A DNA stretch of 64,000 bases from contig NZ_MSJR01000001.1 in assembly GCF_002078605.1 (NCBI RefSeq), positions 310,001 to 374,000 of the forward strand, given 5' to 3'. A program made the translations under genes and the position numbers. Position 1 is the first letter of the stretch; every line of letters begins with the position of its first letter. The DNA is from Salegentibacter sediminis. Lineage in GTDB: Bacteria; Bacteroidota; Bacteroidia; Flavobacteriales; Flavobacteriaceae. Under the pieces are notes generated by a model. That model did not search any database. It was not told the DNA's origin and worked only from the letters and a program-made list of their open reading frames with translations. Shown here piece by piece: positions 52,697 through 63,710 of the stretch.

Positions 52697-52957
52697 ATGA
52701 AAATTTCAGTAGAACTTACCCTGACTCCTATTCAGGATAATTTTGAGCCTGCGATCATAAACTTCATTAAAAAAATGAGAGATTCAGGATTAACAGTAAA
52801 AGAAAATCCGTTGAGCACTCAGGTTTATGGGGATTATGATGAGGTGATGGCATTGCTAAATTCAGAAATAAAAAATGCTTTCGAAGCCATTGACCGCGGC
52901 CTGTTGTATATGAAAATTGTAAAATCTGACCGCAGCGATTATGCAGCCGATTTTTGA
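52697..52957 (+). CDS. YkoF/MTH1187-type thiamine-binding protein
   Basis: 86-residue protein with the ferredoxin-like fold expected of the YkoF/MTH1187 group, some of which bind thiamine or its pyrimidine part. Visible pattern: start K-I-S-V-E-L-T-L-T-P-I, helix F-I-K-K-M-R-D-S-G-L-T-V, then N-P-L-S-T-Q-V-Y-G-D-Y-D-E-V. There is no signal peptide, so it acts in the cytoplasm. Its 3' end overlaps pnuC by 17 bp, tying it closely to transport. Confidence 0.82.
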   Translation: MKISVELTLTPIQDNFEPAIINFIKKMRDSGLTVKENPLSTQVYGDYDEVMALLNSEIKNAFEAIDRGLLYMKIVKSDRSDYAADF

Positions 52958-53573
52958 TTTTTTCTTTGACCAGTACTCGGGTTACCCCACACTATTTATT
53001 ATTCTTGAGATCATTGCAGTGATCTTTGGTTTTTTATCGGTATGGTATTCCAAGCAAAATAACATCCTTGTATATCCTACGGGGATTGTAAGCACCCTTA
53101 TTTTCGTTTATTTACTTTGGCAGTGGCAGTTGCTGGGGGATATGATGATTAATGCCTACTATTTCTCAATGAGTATTTACGGTTGGTATATTTGGACTCG
53201 TAAAGTTGATGCAACCCATTTTACCCCAATTACCAATACCACCAAAAAGGAGAACTGGCAAAGCCTTTTTATCTTCCTTGGGACGCTTATTTTTGTATTT
53301 GTGGTTTACGAGTGGTTTGATAAATGGAATAACTGGACCGCTTATGTAGATACCTTAACAACGGCTATTTTCTTTGTGGGAATGTGGCAAATGGCCAAAA
53401 GGAAGATTGAAAACTGGATATTCTGGATTATAGGAGATATCATTTCGGTGCCCTTATATTTTTATAAGGGGCTTACCTTCACGGCAATTCAATATTTTGT
53501 ATTTACAATAATCGCAATATACGGTTACACAGCATGGCAAAAACACTTGCGCAACGACCTACGTCCGTCTTAA
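52941..53573 (+). CDS. pnuC: PnuC family transporter (probable thiamine transporter, PnuT)
   Basis: 210-residue inner-membrane protein with about seven helices. N-terminal F-L-S-V-W-Y-S-K-Q-N-N-I and S-M-S-I-Y-G-W-Y-I-W match PnuC vitamin transporters (nicotinamide riboside, thiamine, riboflavin types). The overlap with the YkoF-like gene and the presence of a TPP-regulated TonB receptor 8 kb away point to thiamine. Facilitated diffusion with metabolic trapping is the usual mechanism, so a kinase partner is expected; the next gene, overlapping by 40 bp, is a candidate. No TPP riboswitch precedes it. Confidence 0.88.
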   Translation: MQPIFDFFFDQYSGYPTLFIILEIIAVIFGFLSVWYSKQNNILVYPTGIVSTLIFVYLLWQWQLLGDMMINAYYFSMSIYGWYIWTRKVDATHFTPITNTTKKENWQSLFIFLGTLIFVFVVYEWFDKWNNWTAYVDTLTTAIFFVGMWQMAKRKIENWIFWIIGDIISVPLYFYKGLTFTAIQYFVFTIIAIYGYTAWQKHLRNDLRPS

Positions 53574-54100
53574 AGGCTGTTTTTTTTGGTCCCGAATCCA
53601 CGGGGAAGACCACCCTGGCTCAAATGCTGGCAGAGCATTTTAACTCCCTTTGGGTAGAGGAATATATGAGGGAATATCTTCAGGAGAAATGGAATTCAGA
53701 GCAAAAAATTTGCGAACCTAAGGATATGTTGCCAATCGCCCGTGGCCAAATACAGCGGGAGAATGAATTGGCAGAAAAGGCCAATAAGATCTTGTTTTGC
53801 GATACAGACCTCCTGGAATTAAAGGTTTATTCTGAAGCTTATTACAATGAATTTTGCGATCCGCAACTTCTTAAACATGCGTTAAACAACCGGTACGATT
53901 TATACTTTTTGATGTATATTGACGTTCCCTGGACTCCCGACGATCTTCGGGATAAGCCCTTTGACCGGGTTGGAATGTTTAAGCGATTTGAAGAAGCTTT
54001 AATCCTCACCGGGAAACCTTATGTGGTTTTAAAAGGTGATTTAAATGAGCGCTTCCAAACTGCAGTTTCAGAAATTAATAAACTTATAAAAAACCAATAG
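53534..54100 (+). CDS. NadR/Ttd14-like P-loop ATPase, putative vitamin kinase
   Basis: 188-residue P-loop protein of the AAA_28/NadR C-terminal type. Walker A is G-P-E-S-T-G-K-T-T with Lys25, followed by W-V-E-E-Y-M-R-E-Y (about 48-56) and C-D-T-D-L-L (about 96-101), the motifs of nicotinamide riboside kinase-like domains. The NadR adenylyltransferase half is absent. Overlap of 40 bp with pnuC suggests translational coupling, and a role in phosphorylating the transported vitamin is a reasonable inference. The 5' choice of M-A-K-T-L-A-Q is the only start that precedes the P-loop closely. Confidence 0.85.
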   Translation: MAKTLAQRPTSVLKAVFFGPESTGKTTLAQMLAEHFNSLWVEEYMREYLQEKWNSEQKICEPKDMLPIARGQIQRENELAEKANKILFCDTDLLELKVYSEAYYNEFCDPQLLKHALNNRYDLYFLMYIDVPWTPDDLRDKPFDRVGMFKRFEEALILTGKPYVVLKGDLNERFQTAVSEINKLIKNQ

Positions 54101-54102
54101 AC

Positions 54103-55656
54103 GTGGGATTTAGCGAGATTGATATTTTACAGATTGAAGAGAAAGGATTAAGTTCAAAAGAAGTAGAACGCCAAATTAAATTATTTGAGAAAGGAAATAT
54201 AAAGGTAGATATTCAGAAGGCTGCGACCCCGGGGAATGGGATCTTTGTTTATTCTGAAAGCGAGAAGAAAGATCTGATCGCTCATTATGAGAACAAGATC
54301 ATTCACCTAAACCCTCTAAAGTTTGTACCTGCCTCGGGAGCTGCTACCAGGATGTTTAAAGCTCTGCATAATTTCACCGATGAATTTGATCCTGAACAGG
54401 AAAGTTTAAGGGCCTACCTGGACCGCAAGGAAGATGCTTCCCTGCAGCGATTTTTTGAAAGTATTGAGAGTTTACCTTTTTATGACCAGGCGCTTAAATT
54501 AACCAGAGAAAAGTACTCCTCTTTTAACGATAAATCAAAGGACCAACAGCAATTGCTTCTCGTTAAGACCATGCTTTATGAAGATGGACTTAATCTTACC
54601 AACCTGCCAAAAGGATTGGTCCCATTTCATAGTTATAAAGACAGAATCGCTACAGCATTTGAAGAACACCTTTATGGGGCTTCAAAATACCTAAATGTAA
54701 ATGGTCTTACAAGACTGCATTTTACTGTTGCCCATGGAGATAAAGATAAATTCGAGAAGGAATTTGAGACTATTAAAGAGCGAGTGGAGAAGGCAACTAA
54801 TACCCAATTTGAGATTAGCTTTTCCTATCAGGATCCTAAAACCGATACCATTGCCGTAGATAATGATAACGAACCTTTCAGAGATGAAGAGGGGCATATC
54901 TTTTTCAGGCCCGGTGGACATGGAGCCCTAATTGAAAACCTTAATAACCAGGATGCCGATCTTATTTTCATTAAGAATATAGATAATGTGGTGGTAGAAG
55001 AGAACCTTGAGGAGGTGCTAGCATATAAAAAAATGTTGGGAGGAAAACTACTTCAGCTTCAGGAGCAAATCTTTAGTTATTTAAGCCAGTTGGACGCTGG
55101 AAATAATTCGGAAACCAAGCTTGATGAGATCGCCCATTTCATCGAAAAAGAGCTTTCCGTAGAGCTTACAACTTCTTTTAATAAATTCACAGGGGAGGAA
55201 AAAACCCAGTACTTGTGTAGAAAGCTGGATAAACCTCTACGCGTTTGTGGGATGGTGATGAATGAAGGAGAGCCCGGCGGTGGTCCATTTTTGGTGAAAG
55301 ATGAAACAGGAGAAGTGACTCTGCAAATTATTGAAGGCGCCCAAATCGATAAGGATAATATGGAGCAACTCAAGATCCTAAATAATTCTACCCACTTCAA
55401 TCCGGTAGATATCGTTTGTGGGATTTATAACTGGAAAAAAGAGAAGTACGATCTCCATCAATATGTGGATGAGCGAATGAGTTTTATCGCTCATAAAACC
55501 AAAGATGGGAAACCATTAAAAGCCCTTGAACGTCCAGGTTTGTGGAATGGAGGGATGGCCTTTTGGAATACTGTTTTTGTAGAAGTTCCGGTATCCACTT
55601 TTAATCCAGTAAAGACAGTGGCAGACTTGCTAAAACCGAATCATCGCACAAAATAG
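54103..55656 (+). CDS. DUF4301 protein, nucleotidyltransferase-like
   Basis: 517-residue cytoplasmic protein with a GTG start 2 bp after the previous gene. DUF4301 has no assigned function. Three segments look like UDP-sugar pyrophosphorylases: P-A-S-G-A-A-T-R-M-F (76-85), R-P-G-G-H-G-A-L (269-276) and K-N-I-D-N-V (291-296), which in that family are the nucleotide loop, the P-G-G-H-G loop and the metal-site N-x-D-N. A further conserved block is C-G-M-V-M-N-E-G-E-P-G-G-G-P (382-395). I infer a GT-A-like nucleotidyltransferase. Its place after a YkoF-PnuC-NadR-like run suggests a nucleotide conjugation step, but it may only share the transcript. Confidence 0.88.
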   Translation: MGFSEIDILQIEEKGLSSKEVERQIKLFEKGNIKVDIQKAATPGNGIFVYSESEKKDLIAHYENKIIHLNPLKFVPASGAATRMFKALHNFTDEFDPEQESLRAYLDRKEDASLQRFFESIESLPFYDQALKLTREKYSSFNDKSKDQQQLLLVKTMLYEDGLNLTNLPKGLVPFHSYKDRIATAFEEHLYGASKYLNVNGLTRLHFTVAHGDKDKFEKEFETIKERVEKATNTQFEISFSYQDPKTDTIAVDNDNEPFRDEEGHIFFRPGGHGALIENLNNQDADLIFIKNIDNVVVEENLEEVLAYKKMLGGKLLQLQEQIFSYLSQLDAGNNSETKLDEIAHFIEKELSVELTTSFNKFTGEEKTQYLCRKLDKPLRVCGMVMNEGEPGGGPFLVKDETGEVTLQIIEGAQIDKDNMEQLKILNNSTHFNPVDIVCGIYNWKKEKYDLHQYVDERMSFIAHKTKDGKPLKALERPGLWNGGMAFWNTVFVEVPVSTFNPVKTVADLLKPNHRTK

Positions 55657-55660
55657 AATA

Positions 55661-56062
55661 GTGGACGAAGAAAGGATAATTCACGAGTTAAAGTTCAAGG
55701 CGGTCAGGAGTTCGGGGGCTGGTGGTCAACATGTTAATAAAACATCATCAAAGGTTGAGCTCCATTTTCCGGTGGAGTTTTCTGAAGCTTTATCAGAAGA
55801 AGAAAAAACCAGGATTCTTAGAAAACTGGCTAACAGGATAACCGGGGCCGGGGAGTTGGTACTTCAGAGTGATACTTCCCGTAGCCAGCATAAAAATAAG
55901 GAGGATGTTATTCTTCGTTTTTTAAACTTGATTAAGGATGCCCTTAGAAAGCGAAAACCACGAAAAAAGACAAAACCTTCTCGTGCAGCCCGGGAAAAAC
56001 GTTTAAAGAAAAAGAAAATCCAGGCAGAGAAAAAGGCAGGAAGAAAAAATCCACTTCAATAA
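55661..56062 (+). CDS. arfB: Peptidyl-tRNA hydrolase ArfB (YaeJ)
   Basis: 133-residue ribosome-rescue release factor that hydrolyses peptidyl-tRNA on stalled ribosomes. The catalytic GGQ motif is at residues 21-23 in S-S-G-A-G-G-Q-H-V-N-K, and the C-terminal tail is long and basic (R-K-R-K-P-R-K-K-T-K-P-S-R), as needed to enter the mRNA channel. Start is GTG, 4 bp after DUF4301. The next 470 bp hold no gene. Confidence 0.95.
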   Translation: MDEERIIHELKFKAVRSSGAGGQHVNKTSSKVELHFPVEFSEALSEEEKTRILRKLANRITGAGELVLQSDTSRSQHKNKEDVILRFLNLIKDALRKRKPRKKTKPSRAAREKRLKKKKIQAEKKAGRKNPLQ

Positions 56063-57283: not shown

Positions 57284-58630
57284 ATGACTAAAATCCTCAT
57301 AGTAGAAGATGATGTCGCTTTCGGCACGATGCTTAAGACGTTTTTACAAAAAAGAAACTATGAGGTGGGGCTTGCTTTTACGGCTTCAGAAGCATTAAAG
57401 AATATAAATGATAAGGATTTTGATCTGATTCTTACCGATGTTCGACTTCCGGATAAAGATGGTCTCGATATCCTCAAGGAAGTGAAAGCCAAAAACACCA
57501 GGACGCAGGTTATTGTCATGACAAGCTATGCTGAAATCAGCATGGCTGTACAGGCGATGAAGGATGGAGCCTTTGATTATGTTTCTAAACCCTTTAGACC
57601 AGAATCTATTCTTCAAACCATCGAAAACGCATTAAACCATAATGAGGCAAGTGCGGCCGAAACAGTAAGGCCGGCCAAAAAAACTAAAAAAACCACATTA
57701 CAAAAAGATAGTTTTGTAAAAGGTGTAAGCGATGCCTCCCGAAAGCTTAATGACTATATTGAGCTGGTGGCTCCTACAAATATGTCGGTTCTCATTATGG
57801 GGGAAAGCGGTACGGGAAAAGAGCAGGTTGCTAAAAGTATACATTCCCAGAGTAAGAGGAAAGATGCGCCATTTATTGCGGTAGACTGTGGGGCAATTCC
57901 GCGGGAACTTGCATCCAGTGAATTTTTCGGGCACTTAAAAGGATCTTTTACCGGGGCAATAAATGATAAAACCGGGCACTTTGAAGCTGCCAATGGAGGC
58001 ACTTTATTTCTTGACGAGATCGGAAATTTAACCTATGAGCTCCAGGTCCAGTTGCTTCGCGCACTACAGGAGAGAAAGATCAAACCTGTGGGGAGTAACA
58101 ACGAAATTGAAGTTGATATTCGGGTGATCACTGCCACCAACGAAGATCTTGCCCAGGCGGTTAGAGAAGGAGAATTCAGGGAAGACCTTTATCACAGGTT
58201 GAATGAATTTTCTATTAAAGTTCCGGCACTAAAAGACAGGAAAGAAGATCTTATGATCTTTGCAGATTATTTTCTGGATGAAGCAAATATCGAACTTGAA
58301 AAAAATGTGATAGGTTTTAGCGAAGAGGCGATAGAGGCTTTTAAAAATTATAATTGGCCCGGAAATTTGCGGGAATTAAAGAATATGGTAAAGCGTGCTG
58401 TGCTTTTAACCCAGGATGATTTGATCCCGTTAAAAGTTTTGCCTCATGAAATTTCTACGGCCCAAAAAACCGAGACAGAGTATGGTCTCTTCAAAAATAA
58501 AAATGAAGAGCAACTCATCATCGAAGCCCTGGAAAAATCTGGGGGGAATAAAAGTAAAGCTGCAAGGTTACTTTCTATAGACCGTAAAACCCTTTATAAT
58601 AAACTTAAACAATATGGGATTAAACTGTGA
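57284..58630 (+). CDS. Sigma-54-dependent response regulator, NtrC family
   Basis: 448-residue transcription activator. Receiver domain (about 1-120) with acidic pocket E-D-D and phospho-acceptor Asp52 in L-T-D-V-R-L-P. AAA+ domain (about 145-380) with Walker A G-E-S-G-T-G-K-E, the sigma-54 contact loop G-S-F-T-G-A (Ser in place of Ala in the usual GAFTGA), Walker B G-G-T-L-F-L-D-E-I-G and R-E-D-L-Y-H-R-L. The C-terminal Fis-type helix-turn-helix is N-K-S-K-A-A-R-L-L-S-I-D-R-K-T-L-Y-N. The nearby convergent hybrid kinase is a likely partner. Confidence 0.95.
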   Translation: MTKILIVEDDVAFGTMLKTFLQKRNYEVGLAFTASEALKNINDKDFDLILTDVRLPDKDGLDILKEVKAKNTRTQVIVMTSYAEISMAVQAMKDGAFDYVSKPFRPESILQTIENALNHNEASAAETVRPAKKTKKTTLQKDSFVKGVSDASRKLNDYIELVAPTNMSVLIMGESGTGKEQVAKSIHSQSKRKDAPFIAVDCGAIPRELASSEFFGHLKGSFTGAINDKTGHFEAANGGTLFLDEIGNLTYELQVQLLRALQERKIKPVGSNNEIEVDIRVITATNEDLAQAVREGEFREDLYHRLNEFSIKVPALKDRKEDLMIFADYFLDEANIELEKNVIGFSEEAIEAFKNYNWPGNLRELKNMVKRAVLLTQDDLIPLKVLPHEISTAQKTETEYGLFKNKNEEQLIIEALEKSGGNKSKAARLLSIDRKTLYNKLKQYGIKL

Positions 58631-61040
58631 TCTCATTTTTCAAATTATTCAATAGCAAGCGAATATTTTTAATCAGGCTGGTAAACCCAGATTCCTCAAA
58701 ATTATTATAATTTTCAATCTCCCTTAATTTTTCGGCGATTGAATGCGCCTTCATTTGTTTAAACATAGGCAGCATTTTATGTGCAATCGAAGCCAGTTTT
58801 TCCTGGTCTTGTTGTTTAAATGCTTCCTCAAGGTCCTCCAGGTTTTTTTCTGAACTATCCAAAAAGGCGTTTATAATAATGTGCATTGCCTTTTCATCAC
58901 CTCCGGAAAACTGGTAGATCTCTTCAAGATCATATTCGGTTCCGGGTCTTTTGCTTGGTGGGAGATAATTATTAGACGCAACCTCAACCTGGAATATTTC
59001 AGCAATACTATTTAAAAGTTCCTGTGGTTTATAAGGTTTGATAAGGCTTTTTGCAAATCCTGCCTTGGTATAGAAATCGGGTTCCAGGCTTGTTCTTCCG
59101 GAGATGGCAATCACCGGAATATTCTGTATTTTGGAGTCTTCCTTAATTTGTGAGATGAGTTCCAAACCATCCATTCTTGGCATTTGAATATCGGTGAGCA
59201 CCAGATCAAATTTATCAGATTTCAATTTGTTTAAGGCGTCGTAGCCATTAAGACTGCTTTCACAGGTAAGTCCTAATGATTTAACCAGTTCCTGAGTGAG
59301 AGCCAGTTGAGAGGGTTCATCATCTACCACCAAAGCCTTTTTATTTTTAAGCGACACCGGAGGAGGGCTTGGCTCTTTTGGTTTAGCAATAGCCTTTTCC
59401 TGTTTTTTAATTTTAACAACAGGGAGATAGACGATAAATTCACTGCCGTCTCCGGGAGCGCTTATGAGGTCTAATCTTCCTTTAAGTAGAGTAGTTAGAC
59501 TCCTGGTGATGGTAAGGCCAAGACCGGTACCTCCGTATTGTTTTTCAATCTTGCTGTTTTCCTGGGAAAACTCTTCAAAGATCTCCTCCTGTTTTTCCTT
59601 CGGAATTCCAATGCCGGAATCTTTCACCGATATGATGAGGGTATAACTATCCTCAATCTCTTTCCTGAGCCCGACGCTCACTCTCACCTCTCCTTCGTGT
59701 GTGAATTTATAGGCATTGGTCACCAGATTTGCAATGATTTGCTTTATCCTGAAGGGGTCGCTCAGAACCTGGACATCGGCATCAAGCTCTATGTCTATTA
59801 TGATCTCAACATCTTTGTTGATCTCTCCCGGTAAAGAGTTATGTACAGTGTCTTCAATTAATTTTTTAGGATTAAATGGAAGCTTTTCCACCAGCATTTT
59901 TCCCGCCTCTAATTTGGACAGGTCCAGCAAATCATTAACCAGCCTAAGGATAAAATCTGAAGACTTCTTCACATGGGTTAAATAGTGATTCTGTTTATTG
60001 TTTAATTGGGTTTTCCCCATCAGGTCGGTATAACCTATTAAAGTATTCAGGGGTGATCTGAGGTCGTGAGTGATAGCTGCCATAAATTGTTCCCTGCTCT
60101 TTAAAAGGGATTCGGCAAAGGTTTTGGCTTCTTCCAGTTGACTCCGATAACGTTGGCTGCGGCTAACATCCTTTATGATGAGAAATAGAAAAACCAGAAA
60201 AATGATAAAACTCAATGAGCCCGCTGCGATCATTATTATAGAGGTATCTTTCAGCATCTTTTCTGAAGTTTCGGCTCGGTTTAGCGAGGCTTCCCGTTCT
60301 TCCTGTTCTATGGTTGCCAGTACGCTTCGAAGTTGCTGGTTCAGAATTAAATCGTTATCCAACAATTCATTTTCTTTCTGATTGATTTGCTGGCGGAATT
60401 GCTGGTTGGCGGTTTCAAGTTCACTTAACACATTTTTTACCGAACCGATAAGTGAATCGGCAGTTCGGTTGGTTAGCCTTTCTGCATTGTCTTCTTCAGA
60501 AAATTCCAGTAATCGTATTAAAACTCTTCGTTGATGAGGTTCGAGATTGGCAAACCGCTTTTCGTAATTATTGGCATTAAAAGACGGGTCTACCTTACGT
60601 AGTTCTTCGATTACCTGGGTATAATAACTAGTATTTCGGTCCTGTTCTCTTAATTTCAGTAATTCACTAAGGTTGTTGGTTTTTCTTGAAAGCAGGGCAG
60701 AGATACTGTCCAGCTCTGTTTTCATTTGGGTATCGTGATATGATTCTTTTAGCAGGCCAATATTCTCCCGAATGGAGTCTAAATGGTCCTGATATTCCTC
60801 AAGATCACTTTCATCGCCAGTCTGGATGAGGCGCCGACTAATATTCTCGGTTTCATATAACTCTGTAGTGATGTCGCTAACCAGGAAGAGTTTCTCGTTA
60901 TTACTGGTATTGGAATCGGCGAGATTGGTATAAGCCACCACCTGGGTATAGCCGAACCAGACCGAAAGAGCTGCCAGGGCAGCTATTAGGAAATATCCGG
61001 CAACCACTTTAAAGGTTATAGAACGCTTGGTGTTTCGCAT
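58620..61040 (-). CDS. Hybrid sensor histidine kinase with receiver and Hpt domains
   Basis: 806-residue inner-membrane sensor kinase. TM1 at about 9-33, an alpha-helical periplasmic sensor (about 35-265) predicted as coiled coil, TM2 at about 268-292. HisKA with phospho-accepting His325 in A-A-I-T-H-D-L-R-S-P, HATPase (about 430-545; G-T-G-L-G-L-T-I), receiver with Asp617 in L-V-L-T-D-I-Q-M-P, and a C-terminal Hpt domain with His754 in I-A-H-K-M-L-P-M. It can run a full phosphorelay within one protein. The ligand is unknown. Its 3' end overlaps the end of the NtrC-type regulator by 11 bp. Confidence 0.95.
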   Translation of the reverse strand: MRNTKRSITFKVVAGYFLIAALAALSVWFGYTQVVAYTNLADSNTSNNEKLFLVSDITTELYETENISRRLIQTGDESDLEEYQDHLDSIRENIGLLKESYHDTQMKTELDSISALLSRKTNNLSELLKLREQDRNTSYYTQVIEELRKVDPSFNANNYEKRFANLEPHQRRVLIRLLEFSEEDNAERLTNRTADSLIGSVKNVLSELETANQQFRQQINQKENELLDNDLILNQQLRSVLATIEQEEREASLNRAETSEKMLKDTSIIMIAAGSLSFIIFLVFLFLIIKDVSRSQRYRSQLEEAKTFAESLLKSREQFMAAITHDLRSPLNTLIGYTDLMGKTQLNNKQNHYLTHVKKSSDFILRLVNDLLDLSKLEAGKMLVEKLPFNPKKLIEDTVHNSLPGEINKDVEIIIDIELDADVQVLSDPFRIKQIIANLVTNAYKFTHEGEVRVSVGLRKEIEDSYTLIISVKDSGIGIPKEKQEEIFEEFSQENSKIEKQYGGTGLGLTITRSLTTLLKGRLDLISAPGDGSEFIVYLPVVKIKKQEKAIAKPKEPSPPPVSLKNKKALVVDDEPSQLALTQELVKSLGLTCESSLNGYDALNKLKSDKFDLVLTDIQMPRMDGLELISQIKEDSKIQNIPVIAISGRTSLEPDFYTKAGFAKSLIKPYKPQELLNSIAEIFQVEVASNNYLPPSKRPGTEYDLEEIYQFSGGDEKAMHIIINAFLDSSEKNLEDLEEAFKQQDQEKLASIAHKMLPMFKQMKAHSIAEKLREIENYNNFEESGFTSLIKNIRLLLNNLKNEITV

Positions 61041-61121: not shown

Positions 61122-61128
61122 CTGCAAA

Positions 61129-61228
61129 TCTCACAAGGGGTGCCTTTTAAAAGAGGCTGAGATCATACCCAATGAACCTGGGCAGGTAATGCTGCCAAGG
61201 GATGGCGCAAAATGCGCTAAGTATGTAC
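61129..61228 (+). promoter_or_regulatory. TPP riboswitch (THI element)
   Basis: Leader RNA binding thiamine pyrophosphate. The conserved core elements are in order: a-g-g-g-g-t-g near 61136, the pyrimidine-sensing c-t-g-a-g-a at 61157-61162, t-a-c-c-c at 61166-61170, g-a-a-c-c-t-g near 61174-61180, and the pyrophosphate-helix g-g-g-a-t-g-g near 61199-61205. A small hairpin gcgca/tgcgc (61205-61217) follows. It is directly upstream of a terminator and a TonB receptor gene, so TPP should switch off expression of the receptor. Confidence 0.93.
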
Positions 61229-61328: not shown

Positions 61329-63710
61329 ATGAAATCTGTATTATTTTTTGCCGGTCTGTGTTTAATTTCTTTGCAGGCCATTGCTCAAACTCACATTTTA
61401 AAAGGAAAAGTTACCGAAAAGGAGAAGCCCATCGAGGGAGTTTCGGTTTACAGTAAAAAAGCAGGAACTGGAACCCAAACCGATGCCAATGGGAATTACC
61501 GTCTGGAACTCGAGGAAGGATCTTACAACCTGGTCTTTTCTTATGGGAACCAGAAACTTATCCAGGTCGATCTTTTTGAGAATAAAACCCTCAATGTTGA
61601 TCTTGCCGATGCGCAGGAAGTACTTGATGAGGTTTTTCTCTCCTCGCTAAGGGTGAACGCCCAATCACCTATTACTTACAGCAACCTCACGAACGAGGAA
61701 ATTGAAAATCGCAACCTGGGCCAGGATATTCCAATCCTCATGAACTATATGCCAAATGTGGTCTCTACCTCAGATGCCGGAGCAGGCGTTGGTTATACCG
61801 GAATTCGTGTGAGGGGTAGTGATGGAACGAGGGTAAATGTAACGATTAATGGGGTGCCCTATAATGATGCTGAAAGCCAGGGAAGTTTTTGGGTTAACCT
61901 GGGGGATTTTGCTTCCTCAGTTGAAAATATGCAACTTCAGCGAGGGGTGGGAACTTCTACCAACGGTGCCGGTGCCTTTGGTGCCAGCCTGAATATCCTC
62001 ACCGATGGCTACCAGAAAGAAGCTTCTGCAGAACTTGCTAATAGTGTAGGCTCTTATAACACCAGAAAGCATACGCTAAAGTTCAGTACGGGGCTCATAG
62101 ACGAGTATTGGGAATTCGCCGGACGCGTCTCGCAGATAAAGAGCGATGGTTATATTGACCGTGCTGAATCCGATTTGAAATCCTACTTTCTTCAGGGAAC
62201 CTATTTAGATGAAAACACACTTGTAAAAGCCCTTAGCTTTGGGGGAAGTGAACGAACCTATCAGGCCTGGTATGGCATTGATGCTGAAACCCTGGAAAAC
62301 AATCGCACTTTTAATCCTGCAGGGATGTACGAAGATGAAAATGGAGTAACCCGCTATTACGAAGATCAAACCGATAACTATAAGCAGGATCATTATCAGT
62401 TGCTTTGGAACCAGGAATATGATGCCAATTGGTCTTCAAATCTCGCTTTGCACTATACCTACGGAAGAGGATATTACGAGGAATATGAGGAAGGCGCTGA
62501 GCTAAGCGAGTTTGGTTTGGAACCTTTTATGGCAGAAGGAGAGGAGATTACCAATTCTGATCTTGTGGGTACCAAATGGCTGGATAACCATTTTTACGGA
62601 ACAACCTTTGGATTGAATTATCAGAAAAATGATTGGGACATCGTCCTTGGTGGAGGATGGAATAAGTATATAGGAGATCATTTCGGGGAAGTTATCTATA
62701 CTAAGTTTGCCAGTAACAATCGACCAAACGAGCCCTATTACGAGAATACGGCCACCAAAACCGATTTTAATATCTACGGAAAGGCAAACTTTGCTATTAC
62801 TGAAAAATTAGCAGCGTATGCCGATATTCAGTTGAGAACTATTACTTATGAAACTGAAGGCAGGCTTTCTGATGGGAGTGAATTTCCTGTAGATGATAAT
62901 TTGAACTTTTTCAATCCAAAAGCGGGCCTCACATATCAGCTGAATTCCGGGAACCAATTTTATTTTTCTTTTGCCCGGGCACACAGGGAACCCAGTAGAA
63001 ACGATTATGAAAATGGCGACCCTGAACCGGAAGAATTGAATGATTTTGAACTGGGGTGGAGGTACAACTCGCCAAAGCTTCAAATTAATTCTAATTTTTA
63101 TTATATGGATTATCAAAATCAGCTGGTCCTCACTGGTGGCCTGGATGAGGTTGGAGCTTTTATTCGGGAAAACAGTGGAGAAAGTTACCGGTTGGGGCTG
63201 GAAATAGACGCCTCCATAAGAATTTCAGATAAGATAAATCTTAGACCAAATCTGTCTTTAAGCCGAAATCAAAATATCGACTTCGTCTCTACCTGGAACG
63301 GGGAAGTTGTCGATTATGGGAACACAGAGATTTCGTATTCGCCTTCTATTGTTGCTGCAAATATGCTGGGCTATTATCCCTTTGAAGGATTGGAATTAAA
63401 TCTTCTCTCCAAATTTGTTGGAGAACAGTATATGAGCAATATTGAAACTGAAGCTTCCAAACTGGATAGTTATTTTGTAAATGATTTTAATGTACAATAC
63501 AGCTGGAAAGAAGCGCCCTTATTCCAGGAGGTAGTTTTTACCGGGCTCGTGAATAATATTTTTGGGGTGGAGTATGTTTCTAACGGTTACTATTACACCT
63601 ACGATGTGCCTAATCCCGAATTTTCAAGTGGACTTCAAACCTATGACGGCGCAGGGTACTATCCACAGGCAACCACTAACTTTTTAGTTGGGGTCACCTT
63701 AAAATTTTAA
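61329..63710 (+). CDS. TonB-dependent receptor, probable thiamine (TPP-regulated)
   Basis: 793-residue outer-membrane receptor. Signal peptide M-K-S-V-L-F-F-A-G... ending Q-A-I-A-Q. A carboxypeptidase-regulatory-like domain at about 22-100 (G-K-V-T-E-K, T-D-A-N-G-N-Y-R-L) is typical of Bacteroidota receptors. Plug domain at about 115-220 with G-I-R-V-R-G-S-D-G-T, then a 22-strand barrel ending in aromatic F (V-G-V-T-L-K-F). It has no SusD partner. The TPP riboswitch in its leader makes thiamine, its phosphate or a precursor the likely cargo. Confidence 0.93.
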   Translation: MKSVLFFAGLCLISLQAIAQTHILKGKVTEKEKPIEGVSVYSKKAGTGTQTDANGNYRLELEEGSYNLVFSYGNQKLIQVDLFENKTLNVDLADAQEVLDEVFLSSLRVNAQSPITYSNLTNEEIENRNLGQDIPILMNYMPNVVSTSDAGAGVGYTGIRVRGSDGTRVNVTINGVPYNDAESQGSFWVNLGDFASSVENMQLQRGVGTSTNGAGAFGASLNILTDGYQKEASAELANSVGSYNTRKHTLKFSTGLIDEYWEFAGRVSQIKSDGYIDRAESDLKSYFLQGTYLDENTLVKALSFGGSERTYQAWYGIDAETLENNRTFNPAGMYEDENGVTRYYEDQTDNYKQDHYQLLWNQEYDANWSSNLALHYTYGRGYYEEYEEGAELSEFGLEPFMAEGEEITNSDLVGTKWLDNHFYGTTFGLNYQKNDWDIVLGGGWNKYIGDHFGEVIYTKFASNNRPNEPYYENTATKTDFNIYGKANFAITEKLAAYADIQLRTITYETEGRLSDGSEFPVDDNLNFFNPKAGLTYQLNSGNQFYFSFARAHREPSRNDYENGDPEPEELNDFELGWRYNSPKLQINSNFYYMDYQNQLVLTGGLDEVGAFIRENSGESYRLGLEIDASIRISDKINLRPNLSLSRNQNIDFVSTWNGEVVDYGNTEISYSPSIVAANMLGYYPFEGLELNLLSKFVGEQYMSNIETEASKLDSYFVNDFNVQYSWKEAPLFQEVVFTGLVNNIFGVEYVSNGYYYTYDVPNPEFSSGLQTYDGAGYYPQATTNFLVGVTLKF

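Follow-up and report, generated by a model that had tools for sequence, protein, structure and literature searches.

A probable thiamine uptake operon of Salegentibacter sediminis with a NadR-like kinase as candidate thiamine kinase

An operon situated within a 64,000-nucleotide stretch of the Salegentibacter sediminis genome (assembly GCF_002078605.1, contig NZ_MSJR01000001.1, positions 310,001 to 374,000 of the forward strand; hereafter the window) encodes a YkoF-like small protein, a PnuC-family transporter, a NadR-like kinase (K) and a DUF4301 protein, and probably functions in thiamine uptake with K serving as a thiamine kinase. In the proposed scheme, a TonB-dependent receptor encoded behind a thiamine pyrophosphate (TPP) riboswitch in the same window would carry thiamine over the outer membrane, the PnuC-family protein would pass it over the inner membrane, and the YkoF-like protein may bind free thiamine in the cytosol. 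Carriers of the PnuC type depend on their cargo being trapped metabolically, and K would trap thiamine by converting it to thiamine monophosphate (TMP), which the product of thiL, a gene present elsewhere in the genome, would convert to TPP. K would then be a non-orthologous stand-in for thiamine pyrophosphokinase (TPK), whereas DUF4301, a predicted nucleotidylyltransferase of the UDPGP fold, would be coupled to the system in Flavobacteriaceae and yet be dispensable for TPP. The features concerned are as follows.

52697..52957, + strand: YkoF/MTH1187-type single-domain protein (Pfam Thiamine_BP), 86 aa; Pfam, relatives aligned
52941..53573, + strand: PnuC-family transporter, read as a thiamine transporter (PnuT-like); NMN_transporter profile
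53534..54100, + strand: P-loop kinase resembling NadR (AAA_28), lacking the NMNAT domain, candidate thiamine kinase K; Pfam and NCBIfam
54103..55656, + strand: DUF4301, UDPGP-fold predicted nucleotidylyltransferase, GTG start; Pfam and predicted structure
55661..56062, + strand: ArfB, starting 4 bp after DUF4301; list of open reading frames, NCBIfam
61126..61219, + strand: aptamer of a TPP riboswitch, scoring 49.6 bits against a gathering score of 54.3; Rfam covariance model
61329..63710, + strand: TonB-dependent receptor encoded after the riboswitch, candidate for thiamine passage over the outer membrane; sequence and Pfam

The operon and its association with TPP riboswitches

The four genes are overlapping or 2 bp apart, as an earlier reading made from the sequence alone (the sequence-only reading) had claimed, with overlaps of 17 and then 40 bp before the 2-bp gap, and its naming of the four protein types agrees with the Pfam matches. 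The first protein matches Thiamine_BP (PF01910) with 30.9 bits (E 2.6e-7), above the gathering score of 24.9, and falls far below the cut-off of NCBIfam TIGR00106 (19.3 versus 54.7 bits). Membership of the second in the PnuC family is indicated by an NMN_transporter match of 181.5 bits (E 1.8e-53; cut-off 27.3), while the kinase matches AAA_28 (E 6e-44) and the fourth protein DUF4301 (E 3.2e-204). Both the pnuC and the kinase gene are the sole matches to their respective profiles in the genome.

No Rfam match was found in the window at gathering level. Below that level, the TPP model RF00059 covers positions 61126-61219 over its full length (E 2.2e-7), a riboswitch search of the whole genome returned the same place, and the element ends 109 bp ahead of the TonB receptor gene. 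From its conserved place, and from the core retained in relatives, we would say that this element works like a TPP riboswitch. In a scan of named genomes, at least 584 relatives of DUF4301 were confirmed, the best 80 of which were used for locus counts, so that these 80 loci lean towards Flavobacteriaceae. Where pnuC is linked to DUF4301, a TPP-riboswitch core was present downstream on the same strand at 69 of 73 loci, compared with 2 loci that have it upstream and 3 that have it on the opposite strand, a linkage that supports thiamine uptake as first put forward in the sequence-only reading. The core lies within 2 kb at 53 of these loci, whereas at the other 16 of 69 the distance is 5-6.2 kb, similar to that in the window, which suggests that a similar insert separates module and receptor in those relatives. 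Among loci without a linked pnuC, a core was seen at one of seven, namely the locus cut by a contig edge (L162).

The Rfam TPP model itself matched 17 of 20 short slices, cut mostly at cores already seen or at earlier TPP matches, the non-matching slices being those of G107, G122 and G099. In a phylum sample of 148 genomes, the TPP model matches downstream of the module, inside a 20-kb stretch, in 13 of 15 Flavobacteriaceae (the exceptions being G107 and G057). In genome G064, from another family, a TPP riboswitch and then a TonB receptor come after the kinase gene, and the 10-kb stretch contains no pnuC. Two further observations on RNA elements were made. The S. sediminis genome has a second TPP riboswitch that is not closely followed by any evident gene (G000:C1:627266-627353, minus strand, equivalent to L031:15267-15354; 65.1 bits), which is perhaps the remnant of a lost thiamine operon. 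Matches to the Flavo-1 RNA occur shortly before the TPP riboswitch in G138 and G080, of the same genus (L107:224-293, 43.1 bits, over the gathering score; L106:218-373, 29.9 bits, under it).

Adjacency of DUF4301 with pnuC and the NadR-like gene, which the sequence-only reading had marked as worth surveying, proved to be conserved in Flavobacteriaceae. A pnuC gene lies just upstream of DUF4301 on the same strand at 73 of the 80 named loci, an arrangement beyond chance. A separate NadR-like kinase gene is present at 44 loci (38 with pnuC and ykoF, 6 with pnuC only), a kinase-DUF4301 fusion with pnuC at 20, pnuC alone at 9, and no module partner at 7. Since ykoF occurs at 38 of 44 separate-kinase loci versus one of 20 fused and none of 9 pnuC-only loci, it seems that this small binding protein accompanies the kinase where the latter is encoded separately. 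The fusions belong to a Flavobacterium clade and, separately, to Croceivirga (quick tree of 105 rows with SH-aLRT support only), and Pfam confirmed both domains in a single protein for one fusion of each lineage.

With regard to neighbouring genes, the sequence-only reading set the extent of the operon at four genes, all of which are present, but this falls one gene short in view of arfB, which is commonly found 3' of the module in relatives. On the 5' side, genes for a 4'-phosphopantetheinyl transferase and a GGGP-synthase-family protein lie on the same strand. Genes for a sigma-54 response regulator and a hybrid histidine kinase occupy 57284-61040 and separate the module from the receptor gene. 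At two Aquimarina loci (L144 and L145), ykoF, pnuC and the kinase gene are missing, and DUF4301 still stands behind the phosphopantetheinyl transferase gene. Locus L155, on a contig labelled as a Klebsiella pneumoniae metagenome-assembled genome, carries a Flavobacterium-type fused module, and is probably a mislabelled bin.

Thiamine genes and the distribution of the kinase

In the S. sediminis genome, ThiL is present (317 bits), whereas profile searches, which did not extend to ThiK-type kinases or other TPK families, found neither TPK nor ThiC, and the ThiE family is represented by one sub-cut-off match only (E 9.6e-4). By known routes, therefore, TMP must come from thiamine or be imported. 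Kinase counts across the phylum sample were taken from a clean profile, A3, a first profile having been dropped on account of contamination by fused proteins. The clean profile matches 39 of the 148 genomes; six of these have only a NadR-side kinase, a full NadR in three cases, and the kinases of the remaining 33 genomes are called K. Among the 100 genomes without ThiC, with all 39 kinases used, 32 have a kinase only, 62 TPK only, one both and five neither, and the latter five all have ThiE; kinase and TPK are thus nearly mutually exclusive. K was found in 21 of 26 genomes without ThiC, TPK and ThiE, compared with 12 of 122 having another route (Fisher 8.7e-13, shared descent ignored). Within the class to which S. 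sediminis belongs (37 genomes), K is present in 28 of 28 TPK-less and in 5 of 9 TPK-bearing genomes, the four without K all having TPK (Fisher 0.0019, again ignoring shared descent).

Similar relationships were apparent in 48 named genomes, out of 56 chosen from the 80 loci by leaving out mostly short contigs or contigs of metagenome-assembled genomes. TPK was found in one of 26 genomes with a separate kinase (L153) and in 8 of 8 with pnuC-only loci, the genome with the Croceivirga fusion has neither TPK nor ThiC, and the two nearly identical Aquimarina genomes whose loci contain no ykoF, pnuC or kinase gene are without TPK and both have ThiC. In all, the module contains K in 21 of 21 named genomes without TPK and ThiC, whereas the ten without K there all have TPK (8) or ThiC (2) (Fisher 0.0026, with shared descent ignored and K looked for in the module only). 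From this distribution and context, namely the complementarity with TPK and the riboswitch linkage, we infer that K is a thiamine kinase, in keeping with the suggestion of the sequence-only reading that the NadR-like protein phosphorylates the imported vitamin.

The same regulatory context would be expected if the module instead imported a precursor of thiamine or a product of its breakdown, such as hydroxymethylpyrimidine (HMP) or hydroxyethylthiazole (HET), with K phosphorylating that compound, and precursor salvage in several aquatic groups is described in PMC12442306. This is very unlikely, given that S. sediminis and 25 other genomes are without ThiC, TPK and ThiE above cut-off, so that the known enzyme would not be available for joining such precursors into TMP.

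Relationship to NadR and the case against thiamine

K comprises 188 aa and corresponds to the kinase half only of NadR, lacking the NMNAT domain that accompanies the kinase domain in that protein; the NadR model TIGR01526 (NCBIfam) is matched at positions 159-324 of 325 only, below cut-off. A tree of 41 rows falls into three groups, namely the module kinases (14 rows, 98/97), other K (19 rows) and NadR-side sequences (8 rows). The tree provides no root, and on its placement depends whether all K form a single clade. At one position, 5 of 5 NadR sequences have Gly and 13 of 14 of the module kinases have Asp, and few columns are diagnostic for K versus NadR; assignment of a substrate from these residue differences was abandoned, the Gly/Asp column being too little, and the accessible part of a NadR paper (PMC7221760) offers no kinase site with bound nicotinamide riboside for mapping. 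In a PnuC tree of 59 rows, all 15 module PnuCs belong to a clade of 36 rows (100/99) that also includes five TPK-adjacent PnuCs, and the five NadR-adjacent PnuCs fall outside it.

A number of observations weigh against thiamine as the cargo and K as its kinase. The best solved relatives of the kinase profile are NadR kinase domains, and the K tree shows no single K clade, with the module kinases sharing a side with NadR under midpoint rooting. No riboswitch was found directly before the module; the only one detected in the window lies 5.5 kb off, ahead of the receptor gene, and the Rfam gathering score was attained by only 2 of the 17 matching slices. The PnuC tree is not sorted by partner, in that five of six TPK neighbours lie on the opposite strand and converge with pnuC, the single co-directional one (G093) adjoins a PnuC outside the module's clade, and the PnuCs beside K at the riboswitch loci of G072, G080 and G138 are also outside it. 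On these grounds the PnuC tree is weak support, and the TPK-adjacent PnuCs, five of six neighbouring TPK genes being convergent by coordinates, were dropped as a thiamine reference. Flavobacterium has TPK in addition to the K-DUF4301 fusion (11 of 11 named genomes, and five in the phylum sample), so that K is either redundant there or has some other role. Three genomes without ThiC, TPK, ThiE over cut-off and K (G013, G034 and G131) have NadR only, with ThiL present, while G096 and G135, which are without ThiC, TPK and ThiE, have a NadR-side kinase. Finally, the complementarity counts take no account of shared descent.

Some of these observations would suit a system for nicotinamide riboside salvage, in which PnuC imports the riboside, K converts it to nicotinamide mononucleotide and DUF4301 acts as the adenylyltransferase, the whole amounting to a rearranged NadR. 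The affinity of K for NadR kinase domains and its position under midpoint rooting are in favour of this, as is the fact that a kinase and a nucleotidylyltransferase, found fused in some relatives, mimic both activities of NadR. However, linkage to the TPP riboswitch, the Thiamine_BP neighbour and the complementarity of K with TPK are all against it, as is the coexistence in G049 and G146 of a true NadR adjoining pnuC with a separate K, and the NadR-adjacent PnuCs stand apart from those of the module. Riboside salvage was accordingly rejected as the leading reading and seems unlikely. Thiamine uptake, with K as the kinase, is favoured; the PnuC and K trees add little on cargo and did not settle it, and the PnuC-family protein of the operon is taken from context to be a PnuT-like thiamine transporter.

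DUF4301 and comparison with known systems

An AlphaFold2 model of DUF4301, built from 26 sequences, has a mean predicted local distance difference test score (pLDDT) of 91.4, and a Foldseek search of the PDB at E up to 0.001 gave 43 matches, which are UDP-glucose or UDP-GlcNAc pyrophosphorylases or close relatives of these. Superposition on Ugp1p with VIA-align gave a Z score of 23.9 and a root-mean-square deviation of 3.4 over 321 residues, with 17% identity over the aligned part. The motifs GHG, N-DN, VE-AQ and F-PVKT-DLL were aligned by means of weak profile alignments (E 0.0075 and 0.64), and the Pfam UDPGP model scores 22.7 bits against a cut-off of 22, with no single stretch passing. DUF4301 can be placed in the UDPGP-fold family by its fold and its GHG, N-DN and PVKT motifs, the latter through weak alignments, and, to judge by both, is probably an active nucleotidylyltransferase.

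In the phylum sample DUF4301 occurs in 26 genomes and PnuC in 62. By coordinates, DUF4301 is beside pnuC in all 12 Flavobacteriaceae that have it, and apart from pnuC in the other 14 of the 26 genomes. It is absent from three kinase-bearing Flavobacteriaceae (G029, G088 and G107), and 11 of the 148 genomes have it alongside TPK but have no K, indicating that it is not needed for TPP. The sequence-only reading suggested that DUF4301 may act on the nucleotide or phosphate after the kinase; a role for DUF4301 as an obligatory step was abandoned after the phylum survey. That reading had also regarded widespread occurrence of DUF4301 without pnuC and the kinase as evidence against its proposal, and such occurrence is indeed largely what was observed (14 of 26), but the fusions in two lineages and the 9 of 80 loci with pnuC and no kinase make a functional tie to the system plausible.

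It is an even question whether DUF4301 is a sugar-nucleotide pyrophosphorylase of general function, linked to the operon by no more than its position; this would be compatible with thiamine uptake and phosphorylation by K. The UDPGP fold and motifs would fit such a role, as would the 14 of 26 genomes with DUF4301 away from pnuC and its neighbourhood at 21 loci without linked pnuC, where no partner is common across families and shared neighbours occur only in close relatives (for example L078 with L079, L082 with L087, and L081 with L085). Against it stand the linkage to pnuC at 73 of 80 loci, the fusions with K in two lineages, and the loci with pnuC without K. A more specific role, considered distinctly unlikely, is that K and DUF4301 constitute a thiamine analogue of NadR, in which K makes TMP and DUF4301 joins TMP or TPP to a nucleotide, yielding adenosine thiamine di- or triphosphate or a uridine counterpart; if true, this would supply a gene for nucleotidylated thiamines. 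According to a review (PMC8615392), the thiamine diphosphate adenylyl transferase of Escherichia coli is a complex of high molecular weight that became inactive when purified further, and in vitro synthesis of adenosine thiamine diphosphate is still to be demonstrated.

Bacteroides possesses riboswitch-regulated OMthi and pnuT-tnr3 loci, growth at low thiamine is impaired on loss of both transporters, and thiamine transport by PnuT in E. coli has been reported (PMC5613172). As in those loci, a TPP riboswitch, a TonB receptor and a PnuC-family transporter gene adjoining one for a thiamine-phosphorylation enzyme are, on the reading favoured here, found in S. sediminis. Unlike in Bacteroides, which according to the same paper employs Tnr3 (there termed "thiamine pyrophosphorylase"), TPK is absent and a NadR-like kinase occupies its slot, a YkoF-like protein and DUF4301 are added, and the riboswitch was found before the receptor only. 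The module would work like these loci, and like the omr1 and pnuC uptake genes described below, with a different kinase. It resembles PnuC-NadR uptake of nicotinamide riboside in pairing a transporter with a homologous P-loop kinase, and differs from it in the missing NMNAT domain, the thiamine context and the separate position of NadR-adjacent PnuCs. DUF4301 likewise shares fold and, through weak alignments, motifs with the UDP-glucose and UDP-GlcNAc pyrophosphorylases, and departs from them in its low identity to Ugp1p and its fusion, in two lineages, to a vitamin kinase.

A Baltic Sea study names omr1 and pnuC as the vitamin B1 uptake genes dominating Bacteroidetes expression (PMC12442306), Flavobacteriales are reported as B1 takers (PMC8552899), and PMC6593275 includes ThiL/ThiN and PnuT in a table and gives ThiK, ThiM and ThiN as B1 salvage enzymes in its text. 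No report joining PnuC, YkoF, a NadR-like kinase and DUF4301 was found in open-licence literature, where DUF4301 turned up, in the text accessible, only in a rumen proteome.

If correct, the assignment of K as a thiamine kinase would explain how TPP is made in many Bacteroidota that have neither ThiC nor thiamine pyrophosphokinase, and would guard against such operons being taken for nicotinamide riboside systems. DUF4301, for its part, would gain a predicted fold, a likely reaction class and a candidate partner.

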